Shown in pieces: positions 11,963 to 62,824 of a stretch of DNA of 64,000 nucleotides. The stretch comes from Lachnospiraceae bacterium. Lineage in GTDB: Bacteria; Bacillota; Clostridia; Lachnospirales; Lachnospiraceae. Below the pieces are notes generated by a model. The model saw nothing but the letters and a program-made list of their open reading frames with translations, was not told the origin of the DNA and did not search any database. Positions within the stretch are counted from its first letter, which is position 1. Each line of letters starts with the position of its first letter. Both the position numbers and the translations under genes were made by a program. The stretch is from assembly GCA_021770245.1 (NCBI GenBank), contig JAETRI010000002.1, positions 1-64,000 on the forward strand, given 5' to 3'.

Positions 11963-11998
11963 GTATGATAAACAAACCTGCTGGCCTGTTTATCATAC
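11963..11998 (+). repeat. hairpin module A (copy A5)
   Basis: GTATGATAAACA / TGTTTATCATAC 12-bp stem, inner AACC-TGCT-GGCC. Confidence 0.7.
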
Positions 11999-12037
11999 GC
12001 AGACTGGTGTCGTAAATGCCCTGAATTCGAATTGCAT

Positions 12038-12066
12038 ATGCGAAGTTGTCTGCGTAAATTTCGCAT
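12038..12066 (+). repeat. hairpin module C-like
   Basis: ATGCGAA ... TTCGCAT inverted repeat. Confidence 0.45.
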
Positions 12067-12090
12067 GTCAGAGCCGCAGAGGAGGTTAGG

Positions 12091-12122
12091 TTGAAAAATA
12101 AGCCCGATGGCTTATTTTTCAA
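12091..12122 (+). repeat. hairpin module A (copy A1)
   Basis: TTGAAAAATAAGCC-CGAT-GGCTTATTTTTCAA, perfect 14-bp stem. Confidence 0.9.
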
Positions 12123-12125
12123 TCT

Positions 12126-12153
12126 CAATTTGTGCCGCAGGCGGCCCAAATTG
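12126..12153 (+). repeat. hairpin module B (copy B1)
   Basis: CAATTTGTGCCGCAGGCGGCCCAAATTG; same 28-mer at 17229-17256. Confidence 0.9.
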
Positions 12154-12161
12154 AATCGCAG

Positions 12162-12189
12162 ATGAGAAATCGCATCCGCGATTTCTCAT
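12162..12189 (+). repeat. hairpin module C (copy C1)
   Basis: ATGAGAAATCGC-ATCC-GCGATTTCTCAT, perfect 12-bp stem. Confidence 0.9.
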
Positions 12190-12225
12190 TGCGGTGCCGC
12201 AAAAGACGCGGTATGGAGGATTAGC

Positions 12226-12244
12226 GTGAAATCTTCGATTTCAC
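12226..12244 (+). repeat. hairpin module E (copy E1)
   Basis: GTGAAATC-TTC-GATTTCAC. Confidence 0.85.
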
Positions 12245-12257
12245 GATCCTGATTTGT

Positions 12258-12277
12258 CTGCCCGCCGAGGCGGGCAG
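12258..12277 (+). repeat. hairpin module F (copy F1)
   Basis: CTGCCCGC-CGAG-GCGGGCAG followed by ATGG. Confidence 0.85.
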
Positions 12278-12289
12278 ATGGAAGTTAGT

Positions 12290-12308
12290 GTAAAATTTAC
12301 GATTTTAC
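12290..12308 (+). repeat. hairpin module E variant (E5)
   Basis: GTAAAATT-TAC-GATTTTAC; stem changed on both arms relative to E1. Confidence 0.75.
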
Positions 12309-12340
12309 GGGAAACGAAAGTTCCCTTAGTCCGAATTAAA

Positions 12341-12358
12341 TGCCTGTTAAAGCGGGCA
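12341..12358 (+). repeat. hairpin module F variant (F4) with SD tail
   Basis: TGCCTGTTAAAGCGGGCA then GATGGGAGTTGAC before GTG 12372; pairing via G-U. Confidence 0.7.
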
Positions 12359-12371
12359 GATGGGAGTTGAC

Positions 12372-12851
12372 GTGAAAAGGATAGGAAAGTACTTATGTTT
12401 TAGTTTATACTCTGTAGTTCTTTTTTCTGTAGGTATATTCTGGATGGCAAAAAAAGCGGGCTCTGTTATGATTGAAAAACAGATGAATGTAGAAAAATTT
12501 CATAAACTGTTTTTAGTATTAGATGCCTGGATCAAGAAAAAGCAGCAGGGAAAAAGCATGGCGGATTTCCTAAAAAGAAATGCTTATCATTCTGTTGCTA
12601 TTTATGGGCTAAGCAATGTAGGAAGATTATTGGAAGAGGACTTAAAAGACTTGGCAGAGATTCGTTATGGCATCGATCGAAGAGAGATTTCTGCTGGATT
12701 TCCTGTTTTCAGGCCGGAAGAGGATTTGCCGAAGGTTGATGCAGTGATTGTAACAGCTGCATATGAATTTGATGAAATTGAAGAAATGCTTAAGAAGAAA
12801 CTGAGTTGTCCCATTTATTCTATTGAGGATATTATTTATTTTATGAATTGA
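12372..12851 (+). CDS. stand-alone Rossmann-like module protein with N-terminal TM segment
   Basis: YLCFSLYSVVLFSVGIFWMA; then HSVAIYGLSNVGRLLEEDLKDLAEIRYGIDRREISAGFPVFRPEE...DAVIVTAAYEFDEI; GTG start inferred because the ORF-track ATG (12360) lies in the repeat. Confidence 0.65.
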   Translation: MKRIGKYLCFSLYSVVLFSVGIFWMAKKAGSVMIEKQMNVEKFHKLFLVLDAWIKKKQQGKSMADFLKRNAYHSVAIYGLSNVGRLLEEDLKDLAEIRYGIDRREISAGFPVFRPEEDLPKVDAVIVTAAYEFDEIEEMLKKKLSCPIYSIEDIIYFMN

Positions 12852-16192: not shown

Positions 16193-17257
16193 GTGAACAA
16201 GGTGGTCCTGGAGGATATGGAATATATTGACAGGCAGGCGGAACATGACAGGCTGGACGGAAGCAGAGTGCTGATTTCCGGCGCCACAGGCCTGATCGGG
16301 AAATACCTGGTCCGGTTTCTGGCGCAGTATTGTCACTGCACGGTTTTCGCCGTGGTCCGCGACGGGAAGAAGGCCCGGGCCCTCTGGGAGGATCTGGGGG
16401 ACCTGGTACAGACTGTCTGCACCGATATCACGGAACTGGAGGCGGATGACAGAGACATAGACTACATGATCCATGCCGCCTGCATCACCTCCAGCAGAAG
16501 CTTTTCCACAGAGCCGGTGGAGACTATCCGGACTTCCGTGGAGGGAACCGGGAGGATGCTGGAATTTGCCAGGAAAAATCCGGTCAAGGGCTTTGTCTTC
16601 CTCTCCACTATGGAGGTATACGGCACGCCGTCCACGGACGAGAAGATCGGAGAGCTTCATGGGACGGACCTGGACACCATGTCGTCCCGGAGCTCCTATC
16701 CGGAGAGCAAGAGGTTATGCGAGAGTATGTGCAGGGCCTATTTTTCGGAATACGGAGTGCCGGCCCGGGTACTGCGCTTAACCCAGACCTTTGGTCCGGG
16801 GGCGGCCTATGATGATACCCGGGTATTTGCGGAATTTGCCCGGTGCGCCATAGAGGGAAGGGACATTATCCTTCATACCAGGGGAGAGACAAAGAGGAAT
16901 TATCTCTATCTTGCGGATGCCTGCACGGCCATTCTGGCGGTATTGACGAAAGGAGCGAGCGGGGAGGCGTATAACGCGGCCAATGAGGATACCTACTGCA
17001 GTATCAGGGAAATGGCGGAACTGGTCGTATCTCAGTGTGGAGAACAGGGGCTCAGAGTGCGGGTGGAGCAGGAAGAGTCGGCAGCGGAGAAATATGGCTA
17101 TGCGCCTATGCTGCGGATGAACCTGGATACATCCAAGCTGCAGAAGCTTGGGTGGAAGCCTGGTACCGGGCTTGCGGATATGTATCGGAGGACGATCCGG
17201 TCTATGACAGAGGACAGGGAAGGGAGCACAATTTGTGCCGCAGGCGGCCCAAATTGA
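16193..17257 (+). CDS. NAD-dependent epimerase/dehydratase (SDR)
   Basis: VLISGATGLIGKYLVRFL...SRSSYPESKRLCE; last residues are encoded by repeat B2. Confidence 0.85.
   Translation: MNKVVLEDMEYIDRQAEHDRLDGSRVLISGATGLIGKYLVRFLAQYCHCTVFAVVRDGKKARALWEDLGDLVQTVCTDITELEADDRDIDYMIHAACITSSRSFSTEPVETIRTSVEGTGRMLEFARKNPVKGFVFLSTMEVYGTPSTDEKIGELHGTDLDTMSSRSSYPESKRLCESMCRAYFSEYGVPARVLRLTQTFGPGAAYDDTRVFAEFARCAIEGRDIILHTRGETKRNYLYLADACTAILAVLTKGASGEAYNAANEDTYCSIREMAELVVSQCGEQGLRVRVEQEESAAEKYGYAPMLRMNLDTSKLQKLGWKPGTGLADMYRRTIRSMTEDREGSTICAAGGPN
17229..17256 (+). repeat. hairpin module B (copy B2)
   Basis: identical 28-mer to 12126-12153; overlaps 3' end of the epimerase CDS. Confidence 0.9.
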
Positions 17258-17264
17258 ATCACAG

Positions 17265-17291
17265 ATGGGAAACGCATTCGCGGTTTCCCAT
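17265..17291 (+). repeat. hairpin module C (copy C2)
   Basis: ATGGGAAACGC-ATTC-GCGGTTTCCCAT; both arms changed relative to C1 with pairing kept. Confidence 0.85.
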
Positions 17292-17327
17292 TGCGCTGCC
17301 GCGCAGGATGCGGCAAGGAGGATTGGG

Positions 17328-18761
17328 ATGGAATCAAAGTATTTAGCAGCCTTGTCTGCACGGCTGAAGGAATATCAGTCTGTATTGATTTACGGGGCCG
17401 GAGGGGTCGCCAAAAACATGCTGATATTTTTAAATCCCTGTCTGGACAGAAAACATACCCATATCGTGGTATCCCAAAAGGAGGAAAATGAAAGGGAACT
17501 GGCAGGGTATCCCGTGAGGCAGATTGATGAGTTGATAGAGATCCGGAATCAGGCGTTTGTGATTGTGGCCACGATGCCGGAGCAGGCGGCGGTGTTGAAG
17601 AGGAATCTTGACAAATTAGGGTTCCGCAATTATATGACGGCAGAGGAACTTTCGGAGCAGCTGTACCGGGAGATCTGGCAGGAGGAAATTCATGAAAATA
17701 AAATCGTATTCTCTAATTTCATAGGAGCAGGCTTTGGAGGAAATGAGAAATACCTGGCACTGGATTTGCTGGAGCGTTCCCAAGCTCTGGATCTGGTATG
17801 GATCGTAAAGAAAGAGGGAATGAGATTTCCGGCGGGGATCCGGCAGGTGCGGTATGGAACCTATGAGCATTACCGGGAGCTGGGGACGGCCCGAATCTGG
17901 ATAGACAATCAGCATAAGAATTTTTTTACAAGGAAGAGAGAGGGCCAGTGCTATATACAGACCTGGCATGGAGGAGGTCCCCTGAAAAAAATCGAGTTTG
18001 ACGGAAAGAACGTATCCGGTTCATCCCTGGCCTTATGTGAGATGGATTCCAAGCTGGTGGATATTATGGTATCGCCGAGCAGGTTTAACAGCGAAGTGTA
18101 CCGGAGGGCCTTTCACTATGAGGGAGAAATCATGGAATGCGGTTATCCGCGGAACGATATTTTCTGGAAGGATAGCGGGATCAGAAAAGAGATCGAGCAA
18201 CTGTTTGGTGCGGAGCCGGGGGAAATGATTGCGCTTTATGCGCCCACATTCCGGAATTTTGCAAGAAGGGAAAAGGACGTGCTGGATCTGGAAGGGGCCC
18301 GAAATGCCCTGGAAAAAAGATTCGGGAAGAAATGCAGGATTTTTGTCCGGTTTCATCCCCGCGTTGCGGAAACCGAGAAAGATTATCCGGGGATAGGGGG
18401 CTGCGCGGACGTGACAGCTTATGAGGATATTCAGGAGCTCATGGTGGCAGCGGACGTTCTGATCACGGATTATTCCTCGGTGATGTGGGACTTTTCCCTG
18501 AGCGGGAAGCCGGTATTTCTGTTTCATCCGGATGTGGATCTCTATGAAGAAGACAGGGGATACTATCTGCCGTTTCGAAAGATGCCATATGTGGAGAGCT
18601 TTGACAACGAAGACCTGTGCAGAAAGATCGAAAGCTTTAACGAAAGGGGATACAGGGAGCGGGTCAAAGCCTTTGTGGAGGAGTATGGTTCCTTTGACAA
18701 AGGAACCGCGACAAAGGCTGTGGGAGACCGTATCATGAGTTTTTTGAAGCAGGAAAGCTGA
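17328..18761 (+). CDS. N-terminal Rossmann-like module fused to CDP-glycerol glycerophosphotransferase-like protein
   Basis: SVLIYGAGGVAKNMLIFL; IQTWHGGGPLKKIEFD; ALYAPTFRN; VLITDYSSVMWDFSLSGKPVFLFHPD; start refined from 17235. Confidence 0.85.
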   Translation: MESKYLAALSARLKEYQSVLIYGAGGVAKNMLIFLNPCLDRKHTHIVVSQKEENERELAGYPVRQIDELIEIRNQAFVIVATMPEQAAVLKRNLDKLGFRNYMTAEELSEQLYREIWQEEIHENKIVFSNFIGAGFGGNEKYLALDLLERSQALDLVWIVKKEGMRFPAGIRQVRYGTYEHYRELGTARIWIDNQHKNFFTRKREGQCYIQTWHGGGPLKKIEFDGKNVSGSSLALCEMDSKLVDIMVSPSRFNSEVYRRAFHYEGEIMECGYPRNDIFWKDSGIRKEIEQLFGAEPGEMIALYAPTFRNFARREKDVLDLEGARNALEKRFGKKCRIFVRFHPRVAETEKDYPGIGGCADVTAYEDIQELMVAADVLITDYSSVMWDFSLSGKPVFLFHPDVDLYEEDRGYYLPFRKMPYVESFDNEDLCRKIESFNERGYRERVKAFVEEYGSFDKGTATKAVGDRIMSFLKQES

Positions 18762-19794: not shown

Positions 19795-19796
19795 CA

Positions 19797-19936
19797 TTTG
19801 TAACTGCGTTTCAAACTCTTTATTGGAGGTAGTATTGTGAGCTCCGCTTACGATATGCAGGGTATAAGAAACCGCCTTTCAGACTTTTTATTGGCGACAA
19901 TATCGCAGGCTCTGCTTGCGATATGCAAGGGTATAG
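19797..19936 (+). repeat. hairpin module H, tandem degenerate pair
   Basis: TTTGTAACTGCGTTTCAAACTCTTTATTGGAGG...GATATGCAGGGTATA then TTTTTATTGGCGACAATATCGCAGGC-TCT-GCTTGCGATATGCAAGGGTATA; matches 62755-62824. Confidence 0.85.
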
Positions 19937-19942: not shown

Positions 19943-21193
19943 ATGATTATGGAACGGCAGGAAGGAAAACAGTTAGAAGAACAGGGAGCTCCGATTGTTG
20001 TGAGCGTGATTGTTCCCGTATTTAATACGGCGCAATATTTACGGCAATGTCTGGACAGCCTGGTGAATCAGACGCTGCGGCAGATAGAGATTATCTGTAT
20101 AGACGACGGCTCCACCGACGGCAGTGATGAGATTTTGGATGAATATGCCGCAAAGTATTCGAGCGTAAAGGTGATTCATAAGGAAAACGGCGGGGTGGTT
20201 TCGGCAAGAAGGTGTGGGGAAGCCGCCTCGAACGGGGAGTACATAGGCTACGTGGACGGCGACGACTGGACGGACCCGGAGATGTTTTGGCAGTTATATC
20301 ACTGTGCCATAAAGAACAGGGCGGAGATGGTTGCAAGCGGTTACTATTTGGAGGGAAATTACACCTCCGAACTTTACGACGGAGTAGAGGGCGGTTTTTA
20401 CGGAGAAGAGAAGATACGGAATCTGAGGGAAAACGCAATCTATTGTATGCCCAAAAAGGAGGCAGGATTGAGAGGCTCCCTGTGCTGCAAGCTGTTCTTA
20501 AAAAAGCTTTTGGAACGGATCCGGTTTCAGGTTCCGGCAGATATGCAGATGTCGGAGGATAAAATGCAGATGCTGGCTTGTATTCTGGAATGCCGCTCTG
20601 CATATGTCCTGAAAAAAGCCTATTACCATTACCGCATCAATCCCGCATCATCGACACACAGCGAGAATCCGTCTTATCTATTGTGTATGGACAAAGTATA
20701 TCAGTATATAAGAAAGCTGTATTCCCATCCCAACTTTACAGCTGTCATGCGCCGACAGGCGGAATTGTATATGATAGAGATCCTGCTGGCCGGCATCAAT
20801 ACCAGGCTGGGTTTTGGGATACGCAACCTGTTGTGGTTTGATCCATACTGGCTGGAATCCATTCCGGCAGGTTCCCGGATTGTTCTGTACGGCTCCGGGG
20901 AGGCGGGGCGAAAATGCAGGACGCAGCTTTTGGAAAAGGGATGTCATGTATATGTGGGATGTATCGATTTTGGGTATGCCAGGCTTCGGGATGACATCCT
21001 GCAGATTCGGTCGCCGGAAATCCTTTCTTTCACAGAATATGATTACATTGTAATCACGGTAAAGAATCCGGCGAAGGCGGAGCAGATCCGGAAGGGCCTG
21101 GAGGAGTTGGGGGTGGAGCCGGAAAGAATCCTGTGGTTTGAACAACGGGAGCTGTTCTGGCGTTATGCGCAGGCCGAGGGGCTTTTGAAATAG
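19943..21193 (+). CDS. GT2 glycosyltransferase with C-terminal Rossmann-like module
   Basis: VVSVIVPVFNTAQYLRQCLDSLVNQTLRQIEIICIDDGSTDGS; C-term SRIVLYGSGEAGRKCRTQLLEKGCHVYVGCIDFG. Confidence 0.85.
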   Translation: MIMERQEGKQLEEQGAPIVVSVIVPVFNTAQYLRQCLDSLVNQTLRQIEIICIDDGSTDGSDEILDEYAAKYSSVKVIHKENGGVVSARRCGEAASNGEYIGYVDGDDWTDPEMFWQLYHCAIKNRAEMVASGYYLEGNYTSELYDGVEGGFYGEEKIRNLRENAIYCMPKKEAGLRGSLCCKLFLKKLLERIRFQVPADMQMSEDKMQMLACILECRSAYVLKKAYYHYRINPASSTHSENPSYLLCMDKVYQYIRKLYSHPNFTAVMRRQAELYMIEILLAGINTRLGFGIRNLLWFDPYWLESIPAGSRIVLYGSGEAGRKCRTQLLEKGCHVYVGCIDFGYARLRDDILQIRSPEILSFTEYDYIVITVKNPAKAEQIRKGLEELGVEPERILWFEQRELFWRYAQAEGLLK

Positions 21194-21203
21194 TGGGCGC
21201 GCT

Positions 21204-21283
21204 GCCGCGCAGGATGCGGCATGTCGGTTAGTGTGAAATCTTCGATTTCACGATCTTGATTTGAATGCCCGCCAAGGCGGGCA
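21204..21283 (+). repeat. hairpin array D-E-F
   Basis: GCCGC-GCAGGAT-GCGGC, GTGAAATC-TTC-GATTTCAC, TGCCCGCC-AA-GGCGGGCA, then GATGGGGGTTAGC-ATG. Confidence 0.9.
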
Positions 21284-21296
21284 GATGGGGGTTAGC

Positions 21297-22841
21297 ATGA
21301 GACTAAAGAAGCTGACAGAAGAGGATATGAAGAATGCGGCTTCCCAAAAGATATACTGTTATGAAAAGTCTCTGCCGCATCTGTCGGAGTTATGCGATAC
21401 CTATAAAACAGAGAACCGAATATGCCGGATCATTGACGACAGTACCAGGCGGCAGAAAACATTCTGCCTGAAGGGAAAAGAGATCCCGATGCTCGATTCG
21501 GGAGAACTGGAGCAGGAAGATTTTTCAGACAGCCTGGTTATTATAACCAGCGATTACCATAGGGAAGCCTATGAAAAGCTGCGCCGGATTCCATCCCTTT
21601 GCAGGGCTCTGGATACGATTTATTATTTTGCCGATCGGGAGACAGAAACAGAGATCGGTTACCGAAGAAAATATGAGCAGACGCCGCTGGAGGAACTTAT
21701 TCTTTTCCGCAGCGGCCCGCACGCGGCTTCTTATGTAAAAGGAATGGATTATGCAGATAATGCCCGTGCCTTGTTTGAGTATATGCTTCGGGAGGGATAC
21801 AACCAAAGATACAGACTGGTCTGGCTGGTGAAGGAAGCGGAGGAGTTTTCCGGGATTGCAGGCAGGCATGAGAATGTTTCTTTTGTTTCTTATGACTGGT
21901 CCGTATCGGAAGAGCAGGAGGAAAGGGATGCCTATTACCGTGCGCTATGCCTGGCAAAATACATCTTTATGACGGATGCGTACGGTTTTGCCAGAAATGC
22001 CAGAAAAGACCAGATCCGGGTGCAGCTGTGGCACGGATGCGGTTTCAAGACGAGAGTCAATTTTGTGCGTTGCGAGAAAAGATATGAGTATACGACGGTG
22101 ATCAGTGACTTATATGCGAAGATCCATCAGGAAATCTACGGCCTCCGTGCAGATCAGGTCCTGGTAACGGGTTATGCGAAGGAGGACTGGCTGTTTCACC
22201 CTGCGGCGGATGCGCTGGAAAGACTGCATATTCCCAAAGCGTCCCATTACATTTTCTGGCTGCCTACCTTTCGGATGGCTCAAAGTAAGCTGGCAGGGCT
22301 GAACGAATATGAGACGGGAGGGCAGACCGGCCTTCCCCTTGTCGATAGCTATGAGAAGCTGAAAGAGCTGGATGAGATGTTGGACGGCCTGGATACGATC
22401 CTTCTCATAAAGCTCCACCCCTTTCAGGACCGGGACCGGATCGGACAGATCCAAACCGGGCATATCCGATGTCTGGATCAGGATCTGCTTGTGGAAACGG
22501 ATATTCAGATCAATCAGCTCCTGGGTTATGCGGACGGATTGATCAGCGACTATTCCTCCGCTGCCGTGGACTATATGCTGCTGGACCGCCCGATCGGTTT
22601 TACTCTTGACGATGTGGAAGAATATAAAAAAAGCCGGGGATTCGTATTTGACGATATCCGGGAATGGCTTCCGGGCGCCGAATTATTTTTCTTTGAGCAG
22701 TTTTGTGCATTTATAAAGGACATTGTCGCAGGACATGATCCGGACAGAGAGAAGAGGAAGCGCCTGTTGGGCGTTATGCATCGATACAGGGATGATCGAA
22801 GCTGCCAAAGAATTATGGAAGCGCTGCGCATCAAACGTTAA
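21297..22841 (+). CDS. CDP-glycerol glycerophosphotransferase-like protein with divergent N-terminal module
   Basis: VQLWHGCGFKTRVNF; FWLPTFRMAQ; LIKLHPFQD; DGLISDYSSAAVDYMLLDRPIGF; start refined from 21261. Confidence 0.8.
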   Translation: MRLKKLTEEDMKNAASQKIYCYEKSLPHLSELCDTYKTENRICRIIDDSTRRQKTFCLKGKEIPMLDSGELEQEDFSDSLVIITSDYHREAYEKLRRIPSLCRALDTIYYFADRETETEIGYRRKYEQTPLEELILFRSGPHAASYVKGMDYADNARALFEYMLREGYNQRYRLVWLVKEAEEFSGIAGRHENVSFVSYDWSVSEEQEERDAYYRALCLAKYIFMTDAYGFARNARKDQIRVQLWHGCGFKTRVNFVRCEKRYEYTTVISDLYAKIHQEIYGLRADQVLVTGYAKEDWLFHPAADALERLHIPKASHYIFWLPTFRMAQSKLAGLNEYETGGQTGLPLVDSYEKLKELDEMLDGLDTILLIKLHPFQDRDRIGQIQTGHIRCLDQDLLVETDIQINQLLGYADGLISDYSSAAVDYMLLDRPIGFTLDDVEEYKKSRGFVFDDIREWLPGAELFFFEQFCAFIKDIVAGHDPDREKRKRLLGVMHRYRDDRSCQRIMEALRIKR

Positions 22842-30364: not shown

Positions 30365-30592
30365 CCAGCCTGTTGGATTTGGGAAACATCTGCCGACAGA
30401 TGGGTGGAAGACTACGCGCCCTAGTATACCATAGAGCGTATGGAAAAGGAAGCCTTTTATTGTCCTATCACAGGACTATCACTGGACATGGATATTCATG
30501 CGTTTGTTGCGCTGTCCTGTCAGCGGAATTGACTTTCGAATGATTTTGACATATCATGGATTCCAGTATGATATAATGAGCGTTAGCGAAGC

Positions 30593-30651
30593 GGGCATGC
30601 CCGCATGTTCGCCGAGCGGCGAATGATGATCATGAATCTCTGATTCATGAT
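30593..30651 (+). repeat. three perfect palindromes/hairpins upstream of the AviRa-like gene
   Basis: GCGGGCATGCCCGC; TTCGCC-GAGC-GGCGAA; ATCATGAATC-TCT-GATTCATGAT; TATAATGAGCG occurs on both sides. Confidence 0.8.
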
Positions 30652-30769
30652 ATAATGAGCGTCAGCGGGGCGGGCATGTTTGGCGGACGGAGGGGCTGCC
30701 ACCCTGAGTTTCGCGAAAGTTCCGAAGGGTACGACAGGATCAGTGGCTGGCGTTTACGGGGGATATGCG

Positions 30770-34310: not shown

Positions 34311-34345
34311 CGCCAGGACAAACGCATGAATGGCCCTGCGCTTTC
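34311..34345 (+). repeat. interspersed element I (copy I1)
   Basis: CGCCAGGACAAACGCATGAATGGCCCTGCGCT. Confidence 0.85.
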
Positions 34346-36704: not shown

Positions 36705-36707
36705 CGC

Positions 36708-36745
36708 GCCAGGACAAACGCATGAACGGCCCTGCGCTACCCCTG
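36708..36745 (+). repeat. interspersed element I (copy I2)
   Basis: GCCAGGACAAACGCATGAACGGCCCTGCGCT; CAGGAC also pairs with GTCCTG downstream. Confidence 0.85.
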
Positions 36746-36802
36746 TCCTGCGGACGCGCGGCCATAGCCGGTCAGGGTATGGAATGGCATGACCAAACCG
36801 CA

Positions 36803-36831
36803 ATGCGAAACCACCGGTGCGAATTTCGCAT
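36803..36831 (+). repeat. hairpin module C-like
   Basis: ATGCGAAA ... TTTCGCAT, followed by AAGAATGCGGCATGAAAGG (module D). Confidence 0.7.
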
Positions 36832-36868
36832 CGCACAGCTGCAAAGAATGCGGCATGAAAGGATTGAT

Positions 36869-37399
36869 ATGGAAAAACCGGTCACTACACTTTGTTATAT
36901 CGAACAAAACGGCTGCTATCTGATGCTGCACCGTATAAAAAAGAAAAATGACTTAAACGAGCATAAGTGGGTGGGGATCGGAGGCCATGCGGAGGAGGGG
37001 GAAAGTCCGGAGGACTGCCTCATGCGGGAAGCCCTGGAAGAAACGGGCCTGCGGCTGACTTCCTACCGGTTCCGCGGCCTGGTCACCTTCGTATCCGACA
37101 GGTGGGGGACGGAATACATGTGTCTCTATACGGCCGACGGATTTGAAGGCAGCATGACGGAGTGCGAGGAAGGTGTGCTGGAGTGGGTTTCCATGGACCG
37201 GATCGGGGAGCTGAATCTCTGGACGGGGGATTTGATCTTCTTCCGGCTCCTTCGGGAAGGGGCTCCCTTCTTTTCCCTGAAGCTTTGTTACGAAGGGGAC
37301 AGACTGGTATCGTGGCAGCTGAACGGACAGGAGTTCGGGGACGGGCTGCCCTCCGAGGAAAAGTGGAAGGAGATACTTGACAGCCTCGGCACCGTCTAG
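36869..37399 (+). CDS. NUDIX hydrolase (8-oxo-dGTP diphosphatase-like)
   Basis: GIGGHAEEGESPEDCLMREALEETGLRL; start refined from 36722. Confidence 0.9.
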   Translation: MEKPVTTLCYIEQNGCYLMLHRIKKKNDLNEHKWVGIGGHAEEGESPEDCLMREALEETGLRLTSYRFRGLVTFVSDRWGTEYMCLYTADGFEGSMTECEEGVLEWVSMDRIGELNLWTGDLIFFRLLREGAPFFSLKLCYEGDRLVSWQLNGQEFGDGLPSEEKWKEILDSLGTV

Positions 37400-39368: not shown

Positions 39369-39421
39369 AAGGGACGGCCGGTACGCACGCCGAGGTGCAC
39401 AGGACGCGGCATGAAGGGACA

Positions 39422-39457
39422 GTGTGAGAAACAGGCCTGATGGCCTGTTTCTCACAC
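39422..39457 (+). repeat. hairpin module A (copy A4)
   Basis: GTGTGAGAAACAGGCC-TGAT-GGCCTGTTTCTCACAC, perfect 16-bp stem. Confidence 0.95.
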
Positions 39458-39458
39458 G

Positions 39459-39535
39459 GCTATTTGCGCCGGAGCGTCGCAAATAGCTTTGATGGCAGAC
39501 CGCCCCGTCGCGTAAACGCTCCGGAATGGAGATTA
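39459..39535 (+). promoter_or_regulatory. module G (copy G1): candidate H-type pseudoknot / mutually exclusive structure overlapping hisD RBS
   Basis: Stem GCTATTTGCG/CGCAAATAGC (39459-39468/39478-39487); loop CCGGAGCGT (39469-39477) is the exact reverse complement of ACGCTCCGG (39516-39524), next to AATGGAG. Confidence 0.75.
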
Positions 39536-39537
39536 AT

Positions 39538-40830
39538 ATGAGGATATTGAAATTAACGCAGGAGACGAAGCGGGATCTGCTGGGCAGCCTGCTGAAGCGG
39601 AGCCCGAACAATTACGGGGAATACGAATCCGCGGTGGCGGATATCATCGCCGCCGTGCGGGAACGGGGAGACGAGGCTCTTTTCGACTATACGAAGCGGT
39701 TCGACCACTGCGACATGGATGCGGAGCGGATCCGCGTTACAAAAGAGGAGATCGAAGAGGCCTGCTCCGAGGTAGGGGACGAATTCCTAAAGGTGATGGA
39801 GAGATCCGCGGAGAATATCCGCGCATTCCACGCAAAGCAGCTTCGCACCAGTTGGTTTGATCCGAAACCGGACGGGACAATCCTGGGCATGCGCCTCACA
39901 CCGATCGCCACCTCCGGGGTATATGTGCCCGGCGGCAAGGCGGCTTATCCCTCCAGCGTGCTGATGAACGTGCTTCCTGCCAGAGTAGCGGGGGTGGGGC
40001 GGATCGTGATGGCCACGCCGCCCGGCCCGGACGGACGGGTGAATGCGGGTACGCTGGCGGCGGCGCATATTGCCGGCGTGGACGAAATCTATAAGGCGGG
40101 CGGCGCCCAGGCGATCGCGGCCATGGCCTTCGGCACGGAGAGCGTTCCCCGGGTGGACAAGATCACCGGCCCGGGAAATATCTTCGTGGCCCTGGCCAAG
40201 AAGGCCTGTTTCGGTTACGTGAGCATCGATTCCATCGCCGGGCCCAGCGAGATCCTGGTCCTGGCGGACGAAACGGCCAATCCCCGCTACGTGGCGGCGG
40301 ACCTGCTCAGCCAGGCGGAGCACGACGAGCTGGCCAGCGCCATTCTGGTGACCACCAGCGAGGAACTGGGGGAGAGGGTGGCCCGGGAGGTGGAAGGATT
40401 CCTGGCCATGCTCAGCCGCCGGGATATCATCAGGAAATCCCTGGAGAATTACGGCTATATCCTCATTGCGCAAAATCTGGAGGAGGCGGTGGAGGCGGCT
40501 AACGAGATCGCGTCGGAGCACTTGGAGATCCTGACGAAGGATCCCTTCTCGGTGATGACCCGGATCCGCAACGCGGGGGCCATTTTCCTGGGGGAATATT
40601 CCAGCGAACCCCTGGGGGACTATTATGCGGGCCCCAACCACATCTTACCCACCAACGGGACGGCGCGTTTCTTCTCCCCCTTGAATGTGGAGGATTTCAT
40701 GAAGAAGACGAGTATCGTATCCTACTCCCGAAACGCGCTGGAAGAGGCCCATGCGGACATCGAGTTTTTTGCCGAAAGGGAGGGGCTGACGGCCCATGCC
40801 AACTCCGTCAGAGTGAGGTTTGAGGACTGA
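39538..40830 (+). CDS. hisD: histidinol dehydrogenase
   Basis: RLTPIATSGVYVPGGKAAYPSSVLMNVLPARVAGV...GPSEILVLADETANPRYVAADLLSQAEHD; start refined from 39526. Confidence 0.95.
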   Translation: MRILKLTQETKRDLLGSLLKRSPNNYGEYESAVADIIAAVRERGDEALFDYTKRFDHCDMDAERIRVTKEEIEEACSEVGDEFLKVMERSAENIRAFHAKQLRTSWFDPKPDGTILGMRLTPIATSGVYVPGGKAAYPSSVLMNVLPARVAGVGRIVMATPPGPDGRVNAGTLAAAHIAGVDEIYKAGGAQAIAAMAFGTESVPRVDKITGPGNIFVALAKKACFGYVSIDSIAGPSEILVLADETANPRYVAADLLSQAEHDELASAILVTTSEELGERVAREVEGFLAMLSRRDIIRKSLENYGYILIAQNLEEAVEAANEIASEHLEILTKDPFSVMTRIRNAGAIFLGEYSSEPLGDYYAGPNHILPTNGTARFFSPLNVEDFMKKTSIVSYSRNALEEAHADIEFFAEREGLTAHANSVRVRFED

Positions 40831-40861: not shown

Positions 40862-41452
40862 ATGGAACATAGGACGGCATCCGTGGAACGGGTTACGAAG
40901 GAAACGGATATCCGCATGATCCTGGATCTGGACGGGAGCGGAAAAAGCGACATAAGCACCGGGATCGGGTTTTTTGACCATATGCTGGAGGGCTTTGCCA
41001 AACACGGTTTTTTTGATTTGACCCTACAGGTCAAGGGAGACCTGCAGGTGGACGGGCACCATACGGTGGAGGATACAGGGATCGTCCTGGGGGAAGCGAT
41101 TGCCCGGGCGGTCGGAGATAAGAGCGGCATCCGCAGATACGGCCATTTTATCCTGCCCATGGACGATGCGCTCTCCCTGTGCGCCGTGGATCTGTGCGGC
41201 AGGCCCTATTTCGTGTATGACTGCGCCTTTCCCGTCCCCATGATCGGACAGCTGGACGCCCAGCTGATCCGGGAATTCTTCTATGCCGTATCCTACAAAG
41301 CGGCCATGAACCTGCATCTGAAGATGCTGGAGGGACAAAACGGCCATCATATGGCGGAGGCCATGTTCAAATCCTTTGCCAAGGCGCTGGACATGGCGGC
41401 AGCGCCGGATCCGAGGGTTGACGGGGTACTCAGTACGAAGGGAAGCCTGTAA
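40862..41452 (+). CDS. hisB: imidazoleglycerol-phosphate dehydratase
   Basis: TGIGFFDHMLEGFAKHGFFDL...DGHHTVEDTGIVLGEA. Confidence 0.95.
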   Translation: MEHRTASVERVTKETDIRMILDLDGSGKSDISTGIGFFDHMLEGFAKHGFFDLTLQVKGDLQVDGHHTVEDTGIVLGEAIARAVGDKSGIRRYGHFILPMDDALSLCAVDLCGRPYFVYDCAFPVPMIGQLDAQLIREFFYAVSYKAAMNLHLKMLEGQNGHHMAEAMFKSFAKALDMAAAPDPRVDGVLSTKGSL

Positions 41453-41486
41453 GTTGAGAAATAAGCCCGATGGCTTATTTCTCAAC
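41453..41486 (+). repeat. hairpin module A (copy A2)
   Basis: GTTGAGAAATAAGCC-CGAT-GGCTTATTTCTCAAC, perfect 15-bp stem, abutting the hisB stop. Confidence 0.95.
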
Positions 41487-41530
41487 CGCAATTTTTGCCG
41501 CCTGCGCGAGACAGGAAGGAAGCGATACAT

Positions 41531-42817
41531 ATGAGCGTAAAAAAGTTTATTCCATGCATTTATCTTTATCAGAAGCGTGCCGTGAAAAGCTTAACGGACC
41601 GGACCGAGGTGAGCCTCGACCCGGTGGCTCTGGCCAGGGAATACGGGAGCTTTCCATGCGACGCCCTCCTGGTGTTCGACCTGTCCGTCCAGGACCGGGA
41701 GCATGAAGAAGTTTTTGACGTGCTGAAGGAAATCTGTACCGCGTCGGCGGTCCCCGTGATCGGGGCCGGACATATCCGGCGTGCGGAGGATGTGAAGAAG
41801 CTTCTGTACGCGGGCTGCCGCATGGCAGTGTTGGATTTGTCCAGGCAGGACAACCGGGAAATCCTTCGGGAAGTCTCCCTGAGATTCGGTTCCGACAGGC
41901 TGCTGGCGCAAGCGGACGGCAGGGAGGAGACGGAAGAGTACGCCGGCCTTTTGGAGCAGTATGTGTCCGCCCTCTTTCTGACGGAGACCGCTTCCTTCCG
42001 CGCCACGGCCGAAATCAGCCCGGTGCCCGTGATTCCCATGCTGCCCGAGATCGCTCTGGACAAGCTCATAGAAATCCTGAAAATCGAAAGGATTGGCGGG
42101 ATCGCAGGAAAGCTGGTGAACAAAAACATCAGGGAGCTCGGCGCGCTAAAGAAGCTCTGCCGGGAAAACGGCATTGAAACCGCGGCATTTTCTGCGGCGT
42201 TTTCCTGGACGGATTTTAAACTGAATTCCGACGGGATGGTCCCCGTGATCGTACAGGACTATAAGACGGATGAGGTACTGATGCAGGCCTACATGAATCA
42301 GGAGGCCTATGAAACCACCCTGCGCACGGGCCGGATGACCTATTACAGCAGGAGCCGGAAGGAACTTTGGATCAAAGGGGAAACCAGCGGGCACTACCAG
42401 TATGTGAAGTCCCTCTACGCGGACTGTGACATGGACACGATCCTGGCCAGGGTGGCGCAGGTCGGCGCGGCCTGCCACACCGGCGCCCACAGCTGTTTTT
42501 TTCATGAGATTTCCAACACACAGGAGGAGGACGGATACAACCCGGCGAAGGTGTTTGAGGACGTGTTCTCCGTGATTCTGGACCGGAAGGAGCATCCCAA
42601 GGAAGGCTCCTATACCAATTATTTGTTCGATAAGGGGATCGACAAGATCTTAAAGAAGCTGGGCGAGGAGGCCACGGAGATCGTCATAGCCGCCAAGAAC
42701 CCCAATCCCAATGAGATCAAATACGAGATCTGTGATTTCCTGTATCATATGATGGTGCTCATGGCGGAAAAGGGAGTAACCTGGGAAGAGATCACGGAAG
42801 AGCTGGCAAAGAGGTAG
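41531..42817 (+). CDS. hisIE: HisA/HisF-like N-terminal domain fused to HisI and HisE
   Basis: His[43 protein letters not shown]; His[18 protein letters not shown]-term barrel-like [30 protein letters not shown]. Confidence 0.85.
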
Positions 42818-43081
42818 GAGCCGTTCCCATCGGCTTAAGAAGCAGCGCCAAAGCGGCAGACGGCTTCCAGCAGGATCCTTCCCTGTGCGTCCCGGCGTCC
42901 TGGAGCCTGCGGGGTGTCTGAACTGTCACAGCCTGAAAAATAGTATGGAAAAAACAAAGGACGGTCGATTGCATTCCTGTCCGCAATCCCTTATACTGGA
43001 ATTATATTTGCAGACGGACGAAAGAAGGAAATGGGTAAGGACGCGTTCTGCCCGAATACCGGAAAAAGGGGGATTGCATTT

Positions 43082-52088: not shown

Positions 52089-53720
52089 ATGGAATTCGCG
52101 GTACAAATTTTTTCTGCCCTGGGCGGAATGCGTGGGAATGTGTTTGAAAAGCTCCGGGCTATGGCGGCGGCCGGTATCACCGAGGTGGAGCCCTGTGTGT
52201 CTGCGAACCCGATTCCGGGGGCGGAGGAGATCGTATGGACTCTGGACTGGATGACGGAGCATGCGGAAGAGATCAAGGCCTGCGGGGTTTGGATACCCTC
52301 TGCCCATGTGTTCGGAGAGGTGGCGGGCCAGGCGGAACGCCTGAAAGCGGCCGCACGGGCTGTCGGGCTGAAGGCCTATGTGGTGAAAACGCCGACGGAC
52401 ATCAATGCGCTCTCTCTTCAGCAGGCGTCTTTGACATACAGGAAGCTGGCCGGCGATCTGGAGGAGGAGGGAGTGGAGCTCTGGCTTCATAACGAGGCGG
52501 GCGACATCGCCACGAAGGTACAGGGCAAGAGCGCTTATGAACGCTTATTGGATTTATGCGGAGGAAAGGTATCTGCCCAGGTGGATGTGGGCTGGGTGCT
52601 TTATGCCGGGGAGGATCCTCTAACCCTGCTGGAGCGCAATGCGGACCGGGTCCGCGCCGTGCACTATAAGGATTTTGCCGCCGGAAGTAAGGAGGCCGTG
52701 GACGTTGCGCTCGGAACCGGCGCCCTAGACGTAAAGGGATGCTTCCGCTTTGCCAGGAGCAGGAACCTTCCCCAGTATGTGGATCAGGAGCATTTCGGTA
52801 TGGACGTGCCGGGAGAGCTGGCGGCCGCCGTACGGAAACTGAACGACTGCTCCGACGATCGGGAAAACACGGTGAGCTATCTGAACACCTATGATATCGA
52901 AACCGGCGGGATCCGGGTGCTGGCCCGGTTTGAAAAGGTGATAGAAGCGCCTAACTGGCTGAAGAAGAGCGATACCATCCTTTTCAATGCCGGGGGCCGG
53001 ATGTATGCCTATGATCTGGCATCCGGAACGGAAACCCTGCTGGATACCGGAGACTGTGACCAATGCAATAACGACCATGTGGTTTCCCCGGATGGGGAAG
53101 AGATCGCCGTGAGCCATATGACCTTTGACGATACGGGTTTTTCTTCCCGGGTTTATGTCGTGCCTCTGGCCGGCGGGACTCCCAGGCTGGTAACGCCTAA
53201 CTCTCCCAGCTTCCTTCACGGCTGGTCCCCGGACGGGGTAGAGATGGCTTACTGCGCTTTTCGAAACGTGAACGGGGTGCATACGGTGAACGTGTATACC
53301 ATTCCGGCAGCGGGAGGGGAGGAACGCTGTTTGACAGACGGGGATTTTAACGACGGCCCGGAATACTCGCCGGATGGGGAATGGATCTGGTACAACTCCA
53401 CGAAATCCGGCCTGATGCAGATCTGGAAAATGCGCCGGGACGGCTCCGGACAGACGCAGGTTACCCGAAATACCAGAAACAACTGGTTTGCCCACGTATC
53501 CCCCGACGGAAAAAAGGTGGCGTATCTGTCCTATGCGAAACGGCAGCTGGAGCCCTCCGAGCATTTGCCCAACATGCCCGTGGAGCTGTGGCTCATGAAT
53601 GCGGACGGTTCGGATCAGCACCGGATCCTGTCCCTCTTCGGCGGGCAAGGGAGCATGAACGTGAACTCCTGGGCAGGAGACAGCCGGCGGTTTGCCTTTG
53701 TCAGCTATGAAACGGTGTGA
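52089..53720 (+). CDS. sugar phosphate isomerase/epimerase-like domain fused to TolB/PD40-like beta-propeller
   Basis: N-term EFAVQIFSALGGMRGNVFEKLRAMAAAGITEVEP...VSAQVDVGWVLYAGEDPLTLLE; C-term repeats VVSPDGEEIAVSHM, GWSPDGVEMAYCAF, EYSPDGEWIWYNS, HVSPDGKKVAYLS. Confidence 0.8.
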   Translation: MEFAVQIFSALGGMRGNVFEKLRAMAAAGITEVEPCVSANPIPGAEEIVWTLDWMTEHAEEIKACGVWIPSAHVFGEVAGQAERLKAAARAVGLKAYVVKTPTDINALSLQQASLTYRKLAGDLEEEGVELWLHNEAGDIATKVQGKSAYERLLDLCGGKVSAQVDVGWVLYAGEDPLTLLERNADRVRAVHYKDFAAGSKEAVDVALGTGALDVKGCFRFARSRNLPQYVDQEHFGMDVPGELAAAVRKLNDCSDDRENTVSYLNTYDIETGGIRVLARFEKVIEAPNWLKKSDTILFNAGGRMYAYDLASGTETLLDTGDCDQCNNDHVVSPDGEEIAVSHMTFDDTGFSSRVYVVPLAGGTPRLVTPNSPSFLHGWSPDGVEMAYCAFRNVNGVHTVNVYTIPAAGGEERCLTDGDFNDGPEYSPDGEWIWYNSTKSGLMQIWKMRRDGSGQTQVTRNTRNNWFAHVSPDGKKVAYLSYAKRQLEPSEHLPNMPVELWLMNADGSDQHRILSLFGGQGSMNVNSWAGDSRRFAFVSYETV

Positions 53721-53768: not shown

Positions 53769-53866
53769 ATGAAATCTTCGATTTCACGATCTTGATTTGA
53801 ATGCCCGCCAGGGCGGGGCAGATGGGAGTTAACGGAGAAATAGTAGGAATGTCCGTCCAGACGGGC
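53769..53866 (+). repeat. hairpin array E-F-F
   Basis: ATGAAATC-TTC-GATTTCAC; TGCCCGCC-AG-GGCGGGGCA; GTCCGTC-CA-GACGGGC. Confidence 0.85.
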
Positions 53867-58922: not shown

Positions 58923-58930
58923 GATTTGAG

Positions 58931-58948
58931 TGCGCGCTTTAGCGCGCA
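58931..58948 (+). repeat. hairpin module F-like with SD tail
   Basis: TGCGCGC-TTTA-GCGCGCA followed by GATGGGGATACGA-ATG. Confidence 0.75.
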
Positions 58949-58961
58949 GATGGGGATACGA

Positions 58962-59819: not shown

Positions 59820-59832
59820 ATAGGGGGCGTGT

Positions 59833-60483
59833 ATGAAAAGAATATTGTGCTTCGGGGATTCCAATACCTGGGGACAGATCCCGCCTGACCGCGGCAGATA
59901 CTCCTATGAGGAGCGATGGACGGGGGTTATGGCACGGATCCTGGGAGAAGGATTTCAGGTTATTGAAAACGGTATCTGTGGAAGGACATCGGTATGGGAG
60001 GACCCCTTGCTGCCCTCGCGCAACGGACTGGTTGGCCTTGGGGAAGCGCTTTTATCCCAGGGGCCCCTTACTCTGCTCATCCTCAGCCTGGGAACGAACG
60101 ACCTCAAGTACGGAAGTCCGGTTCAGGCTGCGGAGGGCGTACGGAGGCTTGTGGAATTGGCCCGGAACGCGGATAATCTGCTGAAACCCGTCGGTTCCAT
60201 ATTTCCGCAGGGATGCAGGATTCTGATCCTCTCGCCGGTTTCGCTGCATAGAGAGATTGCACGGGTTTCGCCTGACTCATCCCTCAGCGGACAGTATGAT
60301 TCTTCCGTAAGACTGACGGCATGTCTGAGGCGGACGGCGGAAGAGACAGGGTCATCCTTTATGGATGCAGGCGGATTTGCCAAAGCATCGGATACAGACG
60401 GGATCCATATGGACGGACAGGATCATCTACGATTGGGATATGCCGTGGCGGATAAGGTACGGCATATCCTATGCGCGGAATAG
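59833..60483 (+). CDS. SGNH/GDSL hydrolase
   Basis: ILCFGDSNTWGQIPPDRGRYSYEERWTGVMARIL...LSLGTNDLK...DGIHMDGQDHLRLG. Confidence 0.85.
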   Translation: MKRILCFGDSNTWGQIPPDRGRYSYEERWTGVMARILGEGFQVIENGICGRTSVWEDPLLPSRNGLVGLGEALLSQGPLTLLILSLGTNDLKYGSPVQAAEGVRRLVELARNADNLLKPVGSIFPQGCRILILSPVSLHREIARVSPDSSLSGQYDSSVRLTACLRRTAEETGSSFMDAGGFAKASDTDGIHMDGQDHLRLGYAVADKVRHILCAE

Positions 60484-60502
60484 AAAGAATAGGAGAAGCC
60501 TT

Positions 60503-61435
60503 ATGTGCAGATTTGAAATGCAGGCAATGACCGGAGTGATCGCGGCGATGATCACTTCGTATGACGAAAAGGAAAATATCGATGTGGGGCGGACGGAAGC
60601 GCTGGTTGACTTTCTTCTGGACCGGGGGATCGACGGATTCTATTTGACAGGCAGTACGGGAGAAGGTTTTCTGATGACCCAGGAAGAACGGAAGCTGGTG
60701 GTGGAAACGGTGATAAAACGTGTATCCGGGCGCAGGCCTGTGATCGTACATGTGGGTGACATCGGGACCCGTAAATCGATAGAGCTGGCACGCCATGCCT
60801 ACGTGGCAGGGGCGGATGCGGTCTCCTCCGTCCCGCCCTTTTACTGGCGTTTTAGTGAAAAGGATATTTATCATTATTATAAAGACATTTCCGAAGCGAC
60901 CCCGCTGCCCATGATCATATATAATGTACCTCTTGCGGGACTGCTGGGGACGGACCTCTTATTACGGCTTGCAGATCTCCCCAATATAAAGGGCCTTAAG
61001 TTTACCGGAAAGGACCATGACCAGATGGGACATCTGAAGGCGGAGCTGGGGAAGGACTTCCTCGTCTATTCCGGCTGTGATGAAATGGCATTTTCCGGAC
61101 TTTCCGTGGGAACGGACGGCCTTATCGGTTCTTTTTATAATGTGATGCCGGAAACCTTTAAACAGATCTATGCCTGCGTACGGGACGGGCGGATGGAGCA
61201 GGGAAGACGACTGCAGAGCATTGCCACGGAGATCATCTTGGAATGCACCAAATATGATTATCTTGCGCTGCTGCACAATATGATCGGGTGGCAGGGGGTA
61301 GACGCGGGATGGTCGCGCCGGCCTTTTCACAACTATGGAGAGGAAGAACTTTCGGACTTGAAGAAGAAGCTGCGTGCCATCCGTGACAGATTTCGGGTCT
61401 CTAAGGAGGAGGTCGGCTTTCTGGCCGCATTATAG
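60503..61435 (+). CDS. dihydrodipicolinate synthase / N-acetylneuraminate lyase family protein
   Basis: GVIAAMITSYDEKENIDVGRTEALVDFLLDRGIDGFYLTGSTGEGFLMTQEERKLVVE...PMIIYNVPLAGLLG; start refined from 60365. Confidence 0.85.
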   Translation: MCRFEMQAMTGVIAAMITSYDEKENIDVGRTEALVDFLLDRGIDGFYLTGSTGEGFLMTQEERKLVVETVIKRVSGRRPVIVHVGDIGTRKSIELARHAYVAGADAVSSVPPFYWRFSEKDIYHYYKDISEATPLPMIIYNVPLAGLLGTDLLLRLADLPNIKGLKFTGKDHDQMGHLKAELGKDFLVYSGCDEMAFSGLSVGTDGLIGSFYNVMPETFKQIYACVRDGRMEQGRRLQSIATEIILECTKYDYLALLHNMIGWQGVDAGWSRRPFHNYGEEELSDLKKKLRAIRDRFRVSKEEVGFLAAL

Positions 61436-61465
61436 GAGGGCACATTTTCCCTTTGTTTCGCTTCC

Positions 61466-61490
61466 CGGGACAAACGCATGAACGCTCCAG
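61466..61490 (+). repeat. interspersed element I (copy I3)
   Basis: CCCGGGACAAACGCATGAACG. Confidence 0.75.
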
Positions 61491-61638
61491 TGCCCGTCTG
61501 CCGCCCCTGACCTGCCCGCTTTCAAATTTTCCTTGCTTTTCCGCCGCCGATATGCTATAGTATATGCGTTGCGATAACGGGATGGTCCTCTGTTACGGGA
61601 ACATGTATTAAGAACATCCATGACGGTCAGGAGGAAAA

Positions 61639-61989
61639 ATGATGAACGATATCATCAGGGAAATCGAAGCGGGACAGTTAAAGCAGGAAGTTCCTGAATT
61701 CCGCGTAGGGGATACCGTAAAGGTATACGGCAAGATTAAGGAAGGAAACCGGGAAAGGATCCAGGTTTTTGAAGGAATCGTTATGAAGGCCCAGGGCGGC
61801 GGAAACAGGGCGACCTTCACCGTTCGGAAGACATCCAACGGCGTAGGCGTTGAGAAGACGTGGCCTCTGCATTCTCCCAACGTTGAGAAAGTGGAAGTTG
61901 TGAGAAAGGGTAAAGTAAGAAGGGCGAAGCTGAACTATCTGAGAGACAGAGTGGGTAAGAAAGCCAAAGTCAAAGAGCTGGTAAAATAA
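61639..61989 (+). CDS. rplS: 50S ribosomal protein L19
   Basis: [97 protein letters not shown]. Confidence 0.98.
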
Positions 61990-62006
61990 TCAGATAAGGC
62001 ATGAGG

Positions 62007-62035
62007 GGGCAACTGTGGCTGCAGTTGCCCTTTTT
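62007..62035 (+). terminator. intrinsic terminator of rplS
   Basis: GGGCAACTG-TGGCTG-CAGTTGCCC-TTTTT. Confidence 0.9.
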
Positions 62036-62160
62036 CGCCAACATTTTCGTTCCCGTTCGGGGATTACAAAAAAGCGGCATCCGTCCGGCCCCGTCGGGTA
62101 TGGAAGGGAGGCTGGGGGATATTCGGACGCCTCTGTGGATATGGGGAATCGGATTTACAA

Positions 62161-62739
62161 ATGAGAAGAAATAAAGGGCTGAGCTTTTACAGAAAAAGAA
62201 AAAAAGTGAACACCGCCGTCCTCTCCGAGGTGATGAAGTATGTGACGGGAATCGCCATCTCCCTGTTTTTGGCTTATGTGATCGTCTACTTTGTGGGGAT
62301 GCGGACCAGCGTGATCGGCGTGTCTATGGAGCCGTCCCTTTATAACGGGCAGGAAGTTTTGATCAACCGGCTGGCCTATGAATTCGCCAAGCCTAAGACG
62401 GGGGACGTGATTGTATTCCTTCCCAACGGGAGCCACAATGCCCATTATTACGTGAAGCGTGTGGTGGCCTGCGGCGGCGATACGGTGTGGATTTCGGAAG
62501 GGATCCTGTATGTGAACGGAGAAGCGGCGGAAAATATCTATGACCTGATTGCGGACGCAGGCATTGCGGAGAACGAAATCCGGCTGGGAGAGGACGAGTA
62601 TTTCGTGCTGGGAGATAACTGCAATATCAGCGAGGACAGCCGTTCCGGGAATATCGGGCCGGTTTCCGGCGAACACATCGTCGGGAAGGCCTGGTTCCGC
62701 CTTCCGGTTTCCGGCAGCAATATGGGCCTGATTAAATAA
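62161..62739 (+). CDS. lepB: signal peptidase I
   Basis: GVSMEPSLYNGQEVLINRL...YYVKRVVACGGDTV...FVLGDNCNISEDSR. Confidence 0.95.
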   Translation: MRRNKGLSFYRKRKKVNTAVLSEVMKYVTGIAISLFLAYVIVYFVGMRTSVIGVSMEPSLYNGQEVLINRLAYEFAKPKTGDVIVFLPNGSHNAHYYVKRVVACGGDTVWISEGILYVNGEAAENIYDLIADAGIAENEIRLGEDEYFVLGDNCNISEDSRSGNIGPVSGEHIVGKAWFRLPVSGSNMGLIK

Positions 62740-62754
62740 GAAGCAGAAGGAACA

Positions 62755-62824
62755 AGTTTGAAACTGCGTTTCAAACTCTTTATTGGTGGCAATATCATAG
62801 GCTATGCCTATGATATGCAAGGGT
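62755..62824 (+). repeat. hairpin module H (copy H2)
   Basis: AGTTTGAAAC-TGC-GTTTCAAACT, CTTTATTGGTGGC, ATATCATAGGC-TAT-GCCTATGATAT, GCAAGGGTAT. Confidence 0.9.

Follow-up and report, generated by a model that had tools for sequence, protein, structure and literature searches.

The 64,000-nucleotide stretch of DNA analysed here (positions 1 to 64,000 of contig JAETRI010000002.1, assembly GCA_021770245.1, from a Lachnospiraceae bacterium; hereafter the window) carries hairpin-forming repeats in the gaps before many of its genes. The data make it quite probable that these repeats represent a non-autonomous mobile element that doubles as a structured mRNA leader and targets the interval between the Shine-Dalgarno (SD) sequence and the start codon. 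Specifically, mobility is indicated by the presence or absence of copies in close relatives, by copy numbers of 15 versus at least 145 within one genus, by tandem and nested copies, and by a duplication flanking the element in relatives. The source assembly is a 4.28-Mb draft of 237 contigs, in which the window is contig C233. Its HisD is 93% identical to that of an uncultured Lachnospiraceae metagenome-assembled genome and about 80% identical to those of Eisenbergiella species, and the organism is an Eisenbergiella-like member of the family.

An earlier note on this DNA, made from the letters alone, had described hairpins in eleven gaps and sorted them into at least eight recurring types, several of them with co-varying arms, combined in different orders. 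The hairpins are present in all eleven gaps and do recur, but side-by-side comparison of copies indicates that most of the types belong together as segments of a single element, which has two main subfamilies (type 1 and type 2). This main unit of about 140-150 nucleotides (nt) consists of the helices P1 (GATTGAAAAATAAGCC-CGAT-GGCTTATTTTTCAATC), P2 (CAATTTGTG...CAAATTG) and P3 (GATGAGAAATCGC...GCGATTTCTCATC), with an extra ACATGAATC-GAA-GATTCATGT hairpin inserted in some copies, followed by a 3' hairpin (TGCCGC...GCGGCA) and an SD-bearing tail. Its ends, GTGTGAAAA... and ...CTCCGGAA, show no inverted-repeat relationship. The exact repeat families D1-D4, D6, D12, D13 and D16 connect the gaps of the window. 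Two shorter families are separate, namely the type 3 repeat of about 65 nt (e.g. 21233-21295) and a repeat of about 74 nt (e.g. 62756-62829). Together with a short GAGCCGCC hairpin and a sister of type 3 in G107, the nearest same-genus genome compared (DNA about 86% identical across the stretch examined), they reach 10-19 copies each in 613 kb, often ahead of a start codon and in the same manner as the element of about 150 nt.

The arms do co-vary. For 39 copies drawn from other Lachnospiraceae genera, 52 base pairs were counted; 94.9% of cells are paired and 38 of the 52 pairs have changed on both sides, compared with 19.2 in shuffles (0 of 500 shuffles reach 38). The covariation score is 0.340 versus 0.102, and shifting the partner by one to three columns reduces pairing to 33-45%. 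Fold z-scores relative to dinucleotide shuffles are -7.95 at 12086-12228, -6.9 at 39419-39540 and -4.2 at 21228-21299. Furthermore, the P2 loop (CCGGAGCGU) forms a pseudoknot with a strand just 5' of the SD (ACGCUCCGG), a helix with 94.5% pairing in which six of the nine pairs have changed on both sides (for instance UUCUGAGCG/CGCUCGGAA and AUCAGAGCU/UGCUCUGAC) and for which 71 of 78 are paired, versus 46 expected.

A covariance model (R1), built from 11 copies that all come from other genera, finds seven copies in the window (E 3e-3 to 4e-35) and at least 145 in the whole genome, a lower bound obtained from 150 scored candidates; a single query copy already retrieves more than 40 near-complete copies there, with 40 of 178 candidates scored. 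Contigs C93, C178 and C48 end inside an element. The repeats thus interrupt the assembly, and the count probably understates how many copies the genome has. Beyond the own genome, R1 finds at least 140 copies in G182, which belongs to another genus, 18 in G012 and 15 in G107. Matches occur in 62 of 397 Lachnospiraceae genomes (56 of 334 genera), and the four genomes with matches in a class-wide sample of 391 are all Lachnospiraceae. Two exact core patterns had no match in viral contigs, which gives no phage carrier at that stringency.

Across genera, the copies are inserted in sense orientation and in exact register. Among the 39 copies from relatives, 34 run up to the start of an open reading frame (ORF), most of them with the ATG exactly at the model end, compared with 28-37% in a loose random control; in G182, 39 of 53 do so, and several others run directly into another element. 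Of 74 SD-tailed copies in the own genome, 49 are followed immediately by an ORF and 10 by another module. Copies with an SD-less tail (21, mostly TGTCGGTTA) rarely precede an ORF (Fisher p 0.003 versus SD-tailed copies), and a type 1 subfamily in which this tail is fixed lies mostly elsewhere than before genes (L007:9423-9548, L020:9972-10113, L003:10495-10608). On the 5' side, 64 of 80 copies have an SD core within the adjoining 14 nt, compared with 10.6% of random places. In several downstream proteins, a Pfam domain begins only a few residues after the start codon that the element abuts, at residue 7 in GatB and at residue 3 in both Hsp33 and a response regulator.

Comparison with relatives reveals sites with and without the element. 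Between hisG and hisD, where the window carries a copy at 39419..39540 whose 3' end is the hisD start codon, most relatives inspected have short, element-free gaps. At L008:4603-4948, the native TTTTGGAGGAACCTATC|ATG of G107 (also quoted as GGAGGAACCTATC|ATG) has become TTTTGGAGAAATATAG|TTGAAAG...GGAGGATCAGT|ATG in the own genome, a junction also quoted as GGAGAAATATAG|TTGAAAG...GGAGGATCAGT|ATG. Conversely, G107 has a copy between hisD and hisB, where the window is empty (GGAAGGAGGAGCGCGTT|ATG), and further empty sites are seen against G107 and Eisenbergiella. One short element lies inside another at L008:13148-13291, and tandem units occur at L019.

The flanks point in the same direction. In relatives, the 9 nt to the left of the element resemble the 9 nt that follow its conserved end (..CCGGAA|), with a within-genome permutation p of 0.0002. 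At least eight of nine positions are identical in 23 of 77 relatives' copies (12.5 expected) and, in G182 alone, in 13 of 46 (3.6 expected; 0 of 5000 permutations reach it). The correlation is confined to columns -8 to -2, with none upstream of -8; at column -8, 10 of 12 right-flank deviations have the same letter on the left, where 2.1 would be expected. Repeated SD and spacer sequences on both sides include TGGAGCTTA, CGGAGGTTA, TGGAGGTTA, TGGGGATTA and ATGGAGATA. The match is what a target-site duplication of about 9 nt covering the SD would predict. With regard to the fixed-length target-site duplication expected of miniature inverted-repeat transposable elements (MITEs) of the DDE type, a candidate of about 9 nt is seen in other genera and is not visible in the own genome.

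The available data are compatible with a model in which a putative enzyme, probably acting in trans, cuts SD-like sites in a staggered manner, and repair of the cut would duplicate the SD. The duplicated 9 nt or so would supply the gene with a fresh SD, so that insertion might be nearly harmless. In turn, the old upstream SD would face a start codon (GTG, ATG or TTG, then AAA) in the 5' arm of P1 at native spacing. The 5' xTG-AAA of the element would thereby replace the native start, the short leader would probably be translated, and ribosomes could restart at the second SD of the gene. From the element's 5' start codon, an open frame extends in 34 of the 39 relatives' copies; these frames differ in length and stop position, and some continue in frame into the gene. 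Since each insertion would recreate an SD-start junction, further elements could land there or between older ones, which would yield mosaic arrays; adjacent pairs in arrays divide five to four on an age order with the 3'-most copy youngest. In the own lineage, with its few fixed tails, the SD tail seems to have been absorbed into the element. More speculatively, a CUCC strand might pair either with the P2 loop, leaving the SD free, or with the SD, hiding it, which would make translation switchable; in the pseudoknot-free fold of L191, CUCC is predicted to pair with the SD GGAG, so that pseudoknot and SD pairing would be mutually exclusive.

Several points weigh against this model. Neither a mobilising gene nor an autonomous copy came to light; none of the copies inspected contained an ORF, in a search of the genome that was not exhaustive. 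The own genome has a few fixed 3' tails (TGGAGGATTA, TGCGAGGTTA and the SD-less TGTCGGTTA) that do not match the left flank, so that the duplication is not seen in the window itself; either the SD tail is part of these subfamilies or these copies moved differently. Furthermore, the R1 training copies all end at a start codon, which favours the detection of start-adjacent copies, a bias that is partly offset by the evidence from the own genome, G182 and the empty sites. Leader translation and the translational switch are steps that we infer. With regard to the switch, the alternative pairing of CUCC with the SD side (56 of 78 paired versus 40 expected) covaries too, but less than the pseudoknot, and type 1 copies lack the CUCC strand.

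The same pairing is central to a possible, though unlikely, alternative in which the repeats constitute a new class of mobile RNA that is pseudoknotted, resembles short interspersed nuclear elements and is perhaps moved by way of RNA. Here, the CUCC/CUCA strand would pair with the target SD (GGAG/UGAG) as a guide, the element would insert between SD and start with an SD duplication of about 9 nt, and its own start codon and leader would keep the gene translated. If this holds, the excess of SD-side pairing would represent the match between guide and target.

The downstream genes bear on the question whether the repeats are instead a fixed family of cis-regulatory leaders (riboswitch, attenuator or ribosome-sensing leader) that serves a large regulon, spread long ago and was kept for regulation. 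Twenty downstream proteins, including GatB, a Mur ligase, Hsp33, MatE, a sigma factor and a serpin, have no common theme, which makes a dedicated regulator unlikely. The compensatory changes that keep pseudoknot and helices, the placement exactly at SD and start, the possible SD-sequestering pairing and four element sites conserved between the sister species G012 and G337 (the species of this orthologous-site comparison are about 97% identical) would all fit such a family. Yet copies vary from none detected to at least 145 between genera and from 15 to at least 145 within the genus of the window, the nearest relative lacks the element at many sites, and duplicated flanks indicate insertion; as such, the regulatory explanation appears rather improbable.

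Quite improbable, too, is a spread without transposition, in which SD-start regions of different genes would recombine through short homology, or undergo gene conversion, and carry the hairpins along. Such exchange would explain that both flanks look like an SD-start junction, that the 3' tails of the own genome are fixed whatever the left flank, and that units lie in tandem at L019. The deviating letters common to both flanks, however, require that the target supplied the two flanks alike, an outcome that reciprocal exchange does not produce, and the exact insertion register and sense orientation extend across genera. Campbell-type integration of a circle was set aside, as both flanks share deviating letters.

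IS200/IS605 elements are not known to make a target duplication. Repetitive extragenic palindromic (REP) elements or bacterial interspersed mosaic elements (BIMEs) moved by an IS200/IS605-type REP-associated tyrosine (Y1) transposase (RAYT) resemble the repeats in that numerous intergenic hairpins form composite mosaics, that insertion takes place on the right-hand side of a short motif (TA|G) and that terminal inverted repeats are lacking, but are very improbable in view of the duplication in relatives, the lack of a PF01797 match in the own genome, the absence of PF01797 from 18 of 25 element-rich genomes and its presence in 9 of 13 element-poor ones, and a pseudoknotted unit of about 150 nt in place of the short, GC-rich palindrome headed by GT(A/G)G that is typical of REP units (PMC2817692).

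Taken together, the two readings between which the earlier note had left the choice, REP/MITE-like elements or regulators in the 5' untranslated region, are each retained in part. The repeats are mobile in character and form structured leaders that mostly end in an SD, but REP membership is not supported for want of Y1/RAYT genes here and in most element-rich genomes, classical MITE membership fails for want of terminal inverted repeats, and a dedicated regulator is unlikely for want of a shared gene function. The genome-wide covariance search it proposed returned a 5' bias and covariation and no single known transposon family, and the Rfam scan, at gathering and relaxed thresholds, no family at the elements. 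Its observation that the modules end in an SD next to a start codon mostly holds; in the gap before 53969, the modules stop more than 100 nt upstream of the start.

Within the window, all copies lie on the forward strand. The array before the start codon at 12372 begins with a degenerate element of about 150 nt (11963..12078; R1 28.0 bits, E 1.3e-5) and continues with a full type 1 copy comprising P1, P2, P3, the 3' hairpin GTGCCGC/GCGGTA and the tail TGGAGGATTA (12086..12228; R1 90.9 bits, E 1e-24), of which the genome holds at least 40 near-identical copies. A type 3 copy follows (12224..12288; 92% identical to the type 3 query, which has 17 copies in 613 kb of the own genome), with a GTGAAATC-TTC-GATTTCAC hairpin, a TGCCCGCC/GGCGGGCA hairpin and the tail GATGGAAGTTAG, and then decayed short modules that end in GGCAGATGGGAGTTGAC (12289..12371; from the sequence and repeat families D3 and D18). 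A type 1 copy without P1 and with the tail AGGAGGATT (17214..17330; R1 30.1 bits) precedes the ATG at 17328 of a TarF-like coding sequence (CDS), and two tandem copies of the 74-nt family (19797..19935; repeat D1) precede the ATG at 19943. Further downstream, a type 1 3' hairpin with the SD-less tail TGTCGGTTAG (21199..21227; sequence and repeat D6) is followed by a type 3 copy with the tail GATGGGGGTTAG (21233..21295; 98% identical to the query) that adjoins the ATG at 21297, where an ORF starts directly. A degenerate type 1 copy with the tail TGAAAGGATTGAT (36764..36871; R1 20.3 bits) lies before the ATG at 36869 of a Nudix-like CDS.

The hisD copy at 39419..39540 is of type 2 (R1 125.2 bits, E 3.7e-35), with P1, a P2 whose pseudoknot loop is CCGGAGCG, the 3' strand CGCTCCGG and the tail TGGAGATTAATATG; its left flank is now formed by the sequence of an older type 1 tail remnant (GCACAGGACGCGGCATGAAGGGACA, 39384..39418). 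The 5' half of a type 1 copy (41449..41545; R1 25.7 bits) before the hisIE-like CDS starting at 41531 is absent from the close relative L021. A type 2 copy with a variant P1 (51955..52091; R1 62.7 bits, E 3.7e-16) ends at the start codon at 52089. The gap before 53969 holds a type 3 copy (53770..53831; 97% identical to the query), and a type 3-like 3' half (GTGCGCGC/GCGCGCAGATGGGGATA; 58923..58959; repeat D3 and sequence) lies before 58962. The last copy, of the 74-nt family (62756..62829), precedes the ATG at 62835 of the ylqF CDS.

Other repeats occur nearby. A different repeat of about 115 nt lies directly 3' of the hisIE-like gene (42819-42934) and has many genome copies about 90% alike, often in inverted pairs about 70-80 nt apart (C51:23537-/23710+, C201:36874-/37051+, C123:4887-/5071+); its copies do not end at start codons, and the G107 stretches examined showed none of them. 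The repeat GGACAAACGCATGAA(T/C)GGCCC... at 34311-34342, 36707-36738 and 61463-61494, which forms a long inverted repeat at L008:8070-8173, is probably another hairpin family. Two copies of a 32-nt unit, ATGATATAATGAGCGTTAGCG.AGCGGGCATG, lie at 30568-30678 upstream of an ORF at 30680, and a ATATAATGAGCGTCAGC stretch near 14.7 kb of L018 resembles this unit. In L015, at about 10262-10700, a group II intron (RF02001/RF01998) appears to start right after a type 1 P3 hairpin, which raises the possibility that introns, too, use the hairpins as targets. An origin of the element itself from a group II intron, considered for a GUGUG start, was rejected, as the 5' end varies to GTATG and GATTG. At an unrelated position about 1 kb from a relative's element, L129:3102-3266 (-) encodes a TwoAYGGAY RNA (RF01731, E 1.9e-16).

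Small interspersed repeats are usually viewed as tolerated in gaps, whereas the present family hits the SD-start spacer, which ought to be among the most sensitive sites of a gene. The very duplication of the target seems to restore the SD in many genera, which suggests how more than 100 copies could arise even in operons and before essential genes. As such, many Lachnospiraceae genes carry a structured leader insert of about 150 nt, and their start sites are easily mis-annotated. With these inserts, a dominant family of gut bacteria provides a natural experiment on leader structure and the initiation of translation, and the covariance model makes the repeat family directly searchable.

A repeat of this kind, whether from Lachnospiraceae or SD-targeting, was found neither in the literature searched nor in Rfam, and its novelty is claimed with respect to these sources. 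Pseudoknotted SD-sequestering riboswitches are likewise leader RNAs with a pseudoknot strand beside the SD, but they differ from a family that stands in more than 100 copies per genome before unrelated genes and has no Rfam entry. REP/BIME elements with RAYT resemble it in high copy number, intergenic position, hairpins and mosaic clusters and differ in their Y1 transposase, whereas the present units are pseudoknotted, 150 nt long, flanked in relatives by a duplication of about 9 nt and targeted to the SD-start interval. Prokaryotic MITEs such as Correia elements are also non-autonomous, shorter than 200 nt, mostly intergenic and often upstream of genes (PMC10969869), but classical MITEs have the terminal inverted repeats that the present element lacks; in a 2024 review of prokaryotic MITEs, the words 'start codon' and 'ribosome' do not occur, and no SD-targeting MITE is described (PMC10969869). 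YPAL/RU-2 of Yersinia, with duplications of 3 to 26 bp and targets near dyads (PMC2229807), similarly combines a hairpin repeat and internal inverted repeats with target-site duplications, though the present duplication is about 9 nt and covers the SD. The BOX elements of Streptococcus pneumoniae (boxA-boxB-boxC) are modular interspersed repeats with more than 100 copies, a strong RNA fold, mosaic structure and target duplication, and some of their copies supply start codons; they have terminal inverted repeats and are over-represented between convergent genes (PMC3049150), whereas the present copies lie on the sense strand between SD and start, are found only in Lachnospiraceae and are not BOX members. 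Set beside these systems, the family belongs with the small interspersed mobile repeats, among which its target and structure are unusual.

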